A stretch of 64,000 bases of DNA from positions 73,523,005 to 73,587,004 of the forward strand of contig NC_088300.1 of NCBI RefSeq assembly GCF_032854445.1. Reading direction: 5' to 3'. The notes under the pieces were generated by a model that was not told where the DNA came from, ran no database searches, and saw nothing but the letters and a program-made list of their open reading frames with translations. A program made the position numbers and the translations under genes. The stretch comes from Liolophura sinensis. Taxonomy: Eukaryota > Mollusca > Polyplacophora > Chitonida > Chitonidae. Below are positions 28,184 through 31,100 of the stretch, piece after piece (the stretch's first letter is position 1; every line of letters begins with the position of its first letter).

Positions 28184-31100
28184 TCATGTTCTGTAAGATA
28201 AAGGTTTTGATCATTTGAATGGGGTTTACTTCTATTTCATAATATAAGCTGTGGTCAATCATCCCTTCAACAACAAAGGATAATTTCCCCCCCCACCCCA
28301 CTAGAAAAAGGTCAACTGATTTGCTATAACTTTTTGTGAAGGAATTCCTATTGCAGATGTTAACTCTGGAGAAAACCATTAATAACTACAAAATTAGAAG
28401 AATCGACGAAACACCCACACCTTCTTGGAGAAACACTCCTGTGCTTGTCATAAGATGGGCTGCGCCTCTTCTCATATGAGGGACTTCGACGTCGCTCATA
28501 CGATCGTGATCGACTTCTAGATCTGCTATAAGAACGTCTCCTGAAAAAGGTCAAAATTGCTCATACTGAAATGCCCTAGAATACAAGCAACAGCAATTTC
28601 AAGTCGTAGTTGGGATTCAAGTTTTATAAGGAAATCACTACGGTACATAACCTAATTTTGACCCATGGCTGAGTGGCACACTTCCATCCCATTTTGGCAG
28701 TTCTACTGAGTGTTTTTAAATTTGTTTGAAAGACAGGATAATATACATGTACAGTTGGAAAAGCGTCGCTTCAGCAATAATTAGCGTTTACCTGGCGCTA
28801 AAATGCACAATTTTAAGTTCATTACAGTGGATACACACCTCGGGCTTCTACTAGCCGACCTGTATCTAGAGCCACGACCCCTCCTATCATCATCATGCCG
28901 TCTTGGCGATCGTCTTGAACGCTCCTTACCTCTCATTTGGTTTGGTGCTGACAAAATGAAGAAAACACAGAACATAACCATTGCAGGATACAGATATACT
29001 AAGGTTAAAAGACCTGTGGGAAGCTAAATCCCCCTTGAAGAAACACTATTTTAAGAAAAGTACTTAAGATAACTCCAAAAAAACAGACCACCAGAAATGC
29101 CATCTCATGGCAGTGCCAATAAGTGATAAAGTTTCACAGTCTACATTTTGGATCATATTAGAAAAGCTCGAACACAGTGACAATTCTTTTCAGCTAGGAT
29201 TACTTTATCTCCGTGATCGACTTCAACATGAGGTTTTCTTTAAAATGTAAAAAAATGATATCCATGTTTGGAATCTGCATAAAATTGCCTTTCAGAAGAT
29301 GTATACTTCTACAGTGGTCTGCTTCTCAAGATGACATTCAAGAATATGTAATGACAAATCTAAAGTAAATATTACGACTAACTCAATACTTTATGTAGAA
29401 GACAACTGAAAGCAGCACTGCTTGTCCCACTCACTTTTACGATCTCCTCTTGCAAATTCAATTTCCAGTTCACGCCCATGGAACCTGGCCCGGTCTAGAT
29501 AGTGTAATGCATCGTCGGCATCATTTGGGTCTTCAAATGTTCAACTGGTTAAGGATACTTGTTCTGAAACTGATCTTTGTTAACTCGGAACATAGCAACA
29601 ATAAATGCATTATGTCAACGTCCCAAAGAGGATTATAAAATGAACACGTTTCAAAGAACGAAGTGACTCGACAGATCTACTTTCATCTCACCTGTGATTG
29701 ATTACACGGATATTTAACCTACCTCAACCAAAGTTGACCAGTTATTTTATTAATTTTGAAAGAAGCAGATCTTACATGATTGACTATTCACCATGAAGCG
29801 GATATCACTTGTCTGTAGGTCTAGCATTGTTGGACTTGTATCTGTACTCTTTTGACATGTCGGGCTTGTTTCTGTGTCCTTTACTTTAAGCTGGACTTGT
29901 CCCTGTATCTTGTGCTGTAAGCTGTGCTTGGAGAAGACTTTCAAAACTAAGGCTGCCAAACTTTGGTCGGATCGGCGACTTGGAATAGCTGGCCATACTT
30001 TTATCGGGGTTCTTTGCCTTGGTATCCAGGCACCAGGCTTGTGCGACTGCCTTGATCTTGAAACAAACCACTGCCAGCCACCAGACAGGTTCTGACCCAT
30101 GAAGTGAGCAGTGGCTGTCATGCTTGCCTTTTATTTCTTGACACTACTTTACCCTTGAGCGCTTGTTAGTAACTTTAGGAAAGTGACTTGTCTTTGAAAC
30201 ACTGATATGGAAAAGAAATAAATACAAGCATTAACTGGAAATTCATACAAAGCAGCAAAACATAAGCAAGAAAGATGTCTGGAGAACAACTGTTCTCCTA
30301 GATACATCACCTGTACAGGAAAGGATATTGTATGTAGGCAAAACCTCGAGTTCTCCTGGTGTAGTAATCCACAGGGATATAGACGTCAGTTATAGGGCCA
30401 TATTTGCCGAACAAACTTCTGAATTCTTCTGGTCTGGCAGGACAAAGTAGCAAGCAACACACAATCTAAATTTTATATTTCGAATGTGGGATAAAAACAT
30501 ATAAATAAACCAATATGGAGAACATTAACTTGCCTAGTTCAGTTCTGAGCACCTGTGGTCACGACCTGCACTCCTGCCTGGGTCAAGCAGTGTCTGCACA
30601 TCGGATTTATCAGAGTTAACGTTCAGGGAGGAAATGGACATACTTGGGCTCAAGGTGATTTTTCAGAGAAAGTGCAAGTAACTATCATGGGCCAAGACCA
30701 TTCATCATGTCATTATAGATGCACAGTATATTTAAATGAAGTTATCCTCTATTCTTGTAGACGATCATTGGTGCCCTCTGTGTCACTCATTCACCAAACA
30801 AATCACTAATGTATGTGCTGACATTTTGATGGATTAAGTCCCCATTCTAGATATTTCCGACAAACTATTGGCAGTGAGACTCACATGACAACAGGGAGTG
30901 CACGAGCATAAAACTAGCGGGGAAATGCTTTATTTGTAAAATCAGTGAAATTGTGATTCCGACCTTGTCTTTCTATATACATACACTACAGTACACGTTA
31001 AATTAATGAAACAAACATTGTATGCTAATGATACAACATCTAGCCCCTTTCCAAAATGTTGGGTATTTACCTATCCACACTTCAAACCTACGCAGCATTT

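Follow-up and report, generated by a model that had tools for sequence, protein, structure and literature searches.

A minor AT-AC intron in a mollusc SRSF10 gene and a candidate autoregulatory switch nested within it

Is the splicing switch that controls Srsf10 in mammals confined to them, or does it reach further back in animal history? In exon 2 of the mouse and human gene two donors compete, the upstream minor donor leading to the coding mRNA and the downstream major donor to exon 3 (Meinke et al. 2020, PMC7244321). As described in that paper, exon 3 contains an SRSF10-dependent enhancer (nucleotides 17 to 60), a minor donor that goes unused, and a poly(A) site. Use of this exon is promoted by SRSF10 itself, and knockdown of RNPC3 lowers the coding form. 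Srsf10 is stated there to be the sole SR protein gene with a minor intron in mouse and human, and the intron to be autoregulated. Among the open-licence PMC papers listed on the subject, none reports the switch outside mammals.

The locus described here lies in a stretch of 64 kb that is called the window below. A sequence-only reading of it had placed an AT-AC (U12) intron in the RRM of an SR protein gene, and had pointed out that vertebrate Srsf10 carries a minor intron with a part in its own regulation, which is real in mouse and human (PMC7244321). In this report, we examine the identity of the gene, the class of the intron and the elements within it. Our main finding is that an AT-AC minor intron splits the RRM of a mollusc SRSF10, and that switch-like elements inside this intron resemble, in sequence, the autoregulatory exon 3 of mouse and human Srsf10. 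From their layout, and by analogy with mammals, we consider it probable that the intron harbors a nested, unproductive competing choice through which the level of SRSF10 is held by feedback. The features are collected in Table 1.

Table 1. Positions, in the window, of the SRSF10 gene, its minor intron and the candidate elements of the switch (a slash marks an exon border)
Feature	Position	Strand	Remark
SRSF10 exon 1 (from ATG)	32209..32273	-	donor CAG/GTAATT
SRSF10 exon 2	30329..30433	-	most of the RRM's first two thirds; end ...RGFAYIQ, phase 2
AT-AC minor (U12-type) intron, 790 nt	29539..30328	-	second intron of the SRSF10 gene
Minor 5' splice site ATATCCTTT	30320..30328	-	U11 and U6atac of this genome pair with it
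Candidate competing major 5' splice site CAG/GTGATG	30305..30313	-	7.2 bits; follows the minor donor by 18 nt
Candidate major 3' splice site TTATTTCTTTTCCATATCAG/	30202..30221	-	10.7 bits
Candidate unproductive terminal exon (mouse/human E3 counterpart)	30110..30201	-	end at 30110 is a guess; by analogy with PMC7244321
AAAGACAAG, putative SRSF10 site	30187..30195	-	+7 to +15 of the candidate exon; one base off the consensus AAAGACAAA
In-frame TAG	30144..30146	-	on joining of the major donor to 30201; 81-aa product, truncated RRM
Poly(A) signal AATAAA	30130..30135	-	in the candidate terminal exon
GU-rich stretch GTCTGGTGGCTGGCAGTGGTTTGTTTC	30060..30086	-	downstream of AATAAA
Five copies of ACAG(N0-2)ACAAG	29806..29918	-	stretch inside the minor intron
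Weak minor-donor-like site ATATCCGCTT (ATATCCG)	29796..29805	-	396 nt from the start of the candidate exon; may correspond to the unused mouse E3 minor donor
Minor branch site TCCTTAAC	29548..29555	-	9 nt before the intron end; pairs with U12
SRSF10 exon 3 (mouse E4 counterpart)	29435..29538	-	ends ...GDRK
SRSF10 exon 4	28839..28947	-	TPNQM; RS domain, first part
SRSF10 exon 5	28421..28540	-	RS domain

The SRSF10 gene and its surroundings

By its sequence, the minus-strand gene of the window is a mollusc SRSF10. It has the layout of this protein, a single N-terminal RRM (Pfam RRM_1, 69.6 bits in the spliced product) followed by an RS domain (RS exons 28947-28421), and is closer to human SRSF10 (70 identical residues of 100, with an approximate human sequence as reference) than to human SRSF2 (43 of 92, with the SRSF2 sequence taken from PDB matches); identity to the pair of SRSF2-like genes in the same genome is 42/88 and 40/88. 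The string GDRKTPNQM is common to the protein and that human SRSF10 reference. Among the 60 PDB matches listed, of 284, SRSF10 is absent; the entry named splicing factor 10 we take to be Tra2-beta. The three other introns that could be placed are GT-AG introns with ordinary sites, and a search by RS content did not find the 3' end of the gene beyond 28421.

A genome search with the gene gave nine matches, namely three exons of the gene itself, two SRSF2-like genes and four weaker ones, so that the window gene is the only SRSF10-like locus found in it. The two SRSF2-like RRMs, on contig C8, are uninterrupted and have no intron at the position of the SRSF10 minor intron. Retrocopies of the spliced gene, which would serve as a natural cDNA, were sought among the same nine matches; there was none, and masked stretches could hide one. 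The genome also carries, on contig C8, eight tandem hemocyanin beta-sandwich units within about 11.5 kb, of a family that we take to be a molluscan marker; they uphold the earlier description of the gene as mollusc-like. Searches of prokaryote and viral collections for relatives of the locus, as stray eukaryotic DNA, gave 58 and 8 pattern matches, none of which was confirmed.

Head-to-head with SRSF10 lies an exon (32764-32919, plus strand) coding for a ubiquitin-like domain (Pfam ubiquitin, 26.2 bits), which presumably resembles UBLCP1. About 490 bp separate its ATG from the start codon of SRSF10, and a shared promoter is possible.

An AT-AC intron and its spliceosome

The intron splits the RNP1 motif RGFAYIQ/F after two bases of a codon, presumably the same codon as in human SRSF10. 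Its 5' end reads ATATCCTTTCCTG and its 3' end TCCTTAACCAGTTGAAC, the tail being TCCTTAAC followed by CAGTTGAAC with the AC end at 29539. The 5' splice site consensus of AT-AC introns of the U12 type is ATATCCTT(T), and their branch site, close to the 3' end, is like TTCCTTAAC. The donor at 30328 fits the former over nine bases; the branch site differs from the latter in its first base (A for T). Over both strands of the window, ATATCCTTT occurs once, at the start of the intron, and TCCTTAAC followed by AC after 5 to 14 nt also occurs once, at its end. Base composition leads one to expect about one ATATCCTTT per window by chance, and the weight of the evidence therefore comes from both motifs sitting exactly at the positions that restore the RRM.

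This restoration was examined by enumerating 413 joinings (99 GT-AG, 54 GC-AG, 143 AT-AC and 117 AT-AG) with the first intron base in 30420-30251 and the first exon base in 29640-29471. Sixteen of them stay open, and AYIQFED results from 30328/29538 only. The open GT-AG joining nearest to the exon end, 30344/29530 (donor GAG/GTTTTG), loses GFAYIQFE. Slides of the junction by 1 or 2 nt give an identical mRNA because the intron and the next exon both start with AT; AT-AC ends exist in the given placement only. Motifs and frame thus confirm the intron at the position first proposed for it, with donor, branch site and nearby AC acceptor all of the minor type, and the earlier statement that a single joining gives AYIQFED in frame holds for one joining in 413.

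The genome encodes all four snRNAs that had been named as a check on the class of the intron: U12 (five matches, four above the Rfam cut-off, the best at 132.1 bits), U11 (two), U4atac (one) and U6atac (two), the best matches of the latter three also being above the cut-off. Both U6atac loci carry GAAAGGA, which is fully complementary to TCCTTTC in the donor, and both U11 loci carry AAAGG, facing CCTTT in the donor. Four U12 loci inspected carry GTAAGGA, facing TCCTT(A)AC, with one A unpaired as the branch point; the fourth of them (L004) is weaker, at 54 bits, and is without the longer pairing word searched for. U11, U12 and U6atac therefore pair with the intron sites without mismatch, while the pairing pattern tried on U4atac matched flanks only. 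CENATAC, which is particularly needed for AT-AN introns (PMC8329584), is present exon by exon, in four matches. An Rfam scan of the 64-kb window at gathering thresholds gave no match.

With C at position +5 and mismatch-free pairing with U6atac, U11 and U12, the intron belongs to the minor class; judged by these signals, its removal by the minor spliceosome is near certain. An origin of the intron as a transposon copy is unsupported, the single match in the genome being the intron itself; the search, which skipped very common words, found no second copy.

Candidate switch elements and competing readings

The splice sites inside the intron were scored in bits with an approximate weight matrix. 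The candidate major donor is below the other four GT donors of the gene (8.15-8.99 bits), and the candidate acceptor is comparable to the three AG acceptors of the gene (9.8, 9.9 and 11.6 bits). This acceptor, before 30201, ranks in the top 0.5% of window AGs; within the intron it is second to one AG only (10.9 bits), which abuts the downstream major donor. The candidate exon begins TGTTTCAAAGACAAG, and its putative SRSF10 site is to be compared with the consensus AAAGACAAA given in a table of PMC9022966. Joined through the downstream donor, the reading frame continues for 24 codons past Q57 and then meets TAG: the 18-nt extension of exon 2 stays open, and the stop lies 56 nt into the internal exon. 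The truncated product falls from 69.6 to 48 bits against Pfam RRM_1, its match ending at profile position 47 of 70.

With respect to mouse and human Srsf10, the shared features are an AT-AC minor intron, a major donor downstream of the minor donor, an internal exon behind a major acceptor with a putative SRSF10-type site near its start, a poly(A) signal in that exon, a premature stop, and a minor-donor-like site further in. In the mouse I3 construct, 356 nt of exon 3 were kept before a grafted minor donor (PMC7244321). The two arrangements differ in that the mollusc stop is in the internal exon whereas the mammalian one is in the exon 2 extension, in that the mollusc minor-donor-like site is weak, in the five ACAG(N)ACAAG copies, and in that the mollusc case is known from sequence alone. 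The candidate exon is also less GA-rich than the mouse element as described. A short resemblance of the candidate exon to a published human guide sequence near E3, noticed by eye, was set aside as likely due to chance.

Several observations on the intron stand apart from this comparison. The downstream major donor at 30310 (minus strand) sits directly on a strong acceptor-like sequence, CCTTTCCTGTACAG/GTGATG (10.9 bits), which is the form of a recursive-splicing site. The last four ACAG(N0-2)ACAAG copies are about 30 nt apart, and their stretch ends just before ATATCCGCTT; the five copies compare with a shuffle mean of 0.026 and were reached in 0 of 2000 shuffles, for a pattern picked post hoc, and both strands of the whole window hold eight. 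Two further ATATCC, both ATATCCG, are present in the intron, at 29805 and 29713 (minus strand); three ATATCC were reached by 1 shuffle in 2000, and two or more by 11 in 2000. Tandem Repeats Finder returned no row for 29400-30450, and a repeat search around the intron gave short two-copy families only, one of which (31 nt at 74%) is inside the ACAG..ACAAG stretch. In predicted RNA folding, 30420-29540 did not exceed 20 shuffles in stability (z -0.25).

On the reading that we favor, removal of 30328..29539 by the minor spliceosome would give the productive, full-length SRSF10 mRNA. If instead the major donor at 30310 were joined to the exon at 30201, the RNA would be unproductive: it would gain 18 bases, meet a stop at 30146 and be polyadenylated after 30135. 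The encoded protein, of 81 residues, would be missing the final third of the RRM and is unlikely to be useful. SRSF10 bound to the candidate exon would favor the unproductive form, so that with abundant SRSF10 or a scarce minor spliceosome the major donor would win and the transcript would end early; the activity of the minor spliceosome would thus set the level of SRSF10, and feedback would hold it, as in mouse and human. We infer from the mammalian experiments that both splice forms are made, that SRSF10 binds its site, and that both the poly(A) site and the feedback are functional. The switch itself is a reading of one genome, with statistics made post hoc.

These statistics used a combined criterion: a donor scoring 7.2 bits or more, no further than 60 nt from where the intron starts; an acceptor scoring 9.8 bits or more with, inside 60 nt, a 9-mer at most one mismatch from AAAGACAAA; and, inside 150 nt of that acceptor, one of the hexamers AATAAA and ATTAAA with a G/T-rich 25-mer after it. 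Controls were 4000 dinucleotide shuffles of the intron and 2494 other overlapping 790-nt segments of the window, leaving out same-strand segments that start 900 nt or less from the intron. The thresholds were set after the intron had been seen, and the counts are descriptive. The intron has all four features together; with these post hoc thresholds, no shuffle (0/4000) and no segment (0/2494) does. An acceptor with a 9-mer within one mismatch occurred in 30 shuffles and 29 segments, an acceptor with an exact 8-mer (AAAGACAA or AAGACAAA) in 9 and 15, and an acceptor with a poly(A) site in 22 and 0.

Singly, the sites are common: the donor criterion alone was reached in 306/4000 shuffles and 196/2494 segments, and the acceptor criterion alone in 1170/4000 and 805/2494. 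Such frequencies suit the strongest alternative, an unlikely one in our view, in which the intron is a plain, ancient AT-AC intron that is constitutively spliced, its internal major sites and AATAAA are due to chance, and the vertebrate switch came later. The SRSF10 motif, moreover, is not enriched over the whole intron, with one occurrence within one mismatch (shuffle mean 0.34, reached by 566/2000) and five within two mismatches (reached by 397/2000); and neutral processes are held to explain much of the keeping of ancestral minor introns in species rich in them (PMC10639083). Against a plain intron stand the combination in mammalian order, found in none of the shuffles or segments under post hoc thresholds, and the strength of the internal acceptor, which equals that of the real acceptors of the gene. 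The layout could also be a coincidence, or a product of convergence.

A second alternative starts from the three GT donors of the intron that outscore the candidate, at 29691 (CAG/GTGAGA, 10.9 bits), 29722 (GAG/GTAGGT, 9.0 bits) and 29775 (7.5 bits). The two best could close a different unproductive exon, a cassette from 30201 to the donor after 29692 or 29723, with stop codons leading to nonsense-mediated decay. However, pairing between a major donor and the AC end of a minor intron is not to be expected, and these donors would presumably need to skip exon 3 and reach the acceptor before 28947; AATAAA and the GU-rich stretch also lie 5' of them, and we regard a cassette as improbable. Least credible of all is that the major spliceosome removes the AT-AC intron, or that GT-AG splicing alters the RRM: major-type AT-AC introns do exist, but those of sodium channel genes discussed in PMC2831892 have G at +5 where this intron has C together with a complete minor donor and branch site, and none of the 153 GT-AG and GC-AG joinings enumerated keeps AYIQFED.

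The nested unproductive choice that we prefer has partial parallels. In twintrons (Drosophila prospero and 18 human genes; Janice et al. 2013, PMC3564746), major and minor sites likewise compete over one intron position; prospero yields two protein isoforms, whereas the major choice in the mollusc would end the transcript early. SRSF10 is absent from the table of 18 human twintron genes in that paper. In the USSE feedback of U11-48K and U11/U12-65K, too, minor-spliceosome signals control a splicing-factor gene via unproductive RNA (PMC8329584); the tandem minor donors there enhance an upstream major acceptor, unlike the mollusc ATATCCG pair, which is weak and 92 nt apart.

Age of the arrangement, and other features of the window

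A minor intron in a mollusc SRSF10 had been said to make the arrangement very old. This is supported for the minor AT-AC intron of the gene, and for the candidate switch at the level of sequence layout. Molluscs are relatively enriched in minor introns (PMC10639083), so the SRSF10 intron is itself of a known type. Table 2 of PMC2831892 gives 19 Drosophila minor introns with no SRSF10 entry, and flies are therefore silent on the age of the intron.

As for the switch, its layout suggests that it may predate the divergence of vertebrates and molluscs, and it would then descend from an ancestor common with vertebrates. That the whole of it - minor donor, competing major donor, and terminal exon, bound by SRSF10 and carrying a poly(A) site of its own - was present in the SRSF10 of their last common ancestor is a tentative proposition, on which our judgment is nearly balanced and inclines slightly to the negative. 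If shared by descent, the switch predates the split between protostomes and deuterostomes; if ancestral, it would mean that the supply of an SR protein has been linked to minor-spliceosome activity for a very long time. The persistence of minor introns is debated, neutral retention being one answer (PMC10639083). If molluscs and mammals have both kept a minor intron whose competition with a major donor controls a splicing regulator, this would provide a concrete example of functional retention.

Elsewhere in the window, the plus strand carries a non-LTR retrotransposon at 8230-13419, with an endonuclease and reverse transcriptase frame, an RNase H frame after a stop codon, and a frame with zinc-knuckle-like motifs recognized by eye, which has no Pfam match. 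Further along the same strand, 56743-57496 contains overlapping reading frames with MYIHTDVYI-like units and repeated units of a second type, apparently a tandem repeat.
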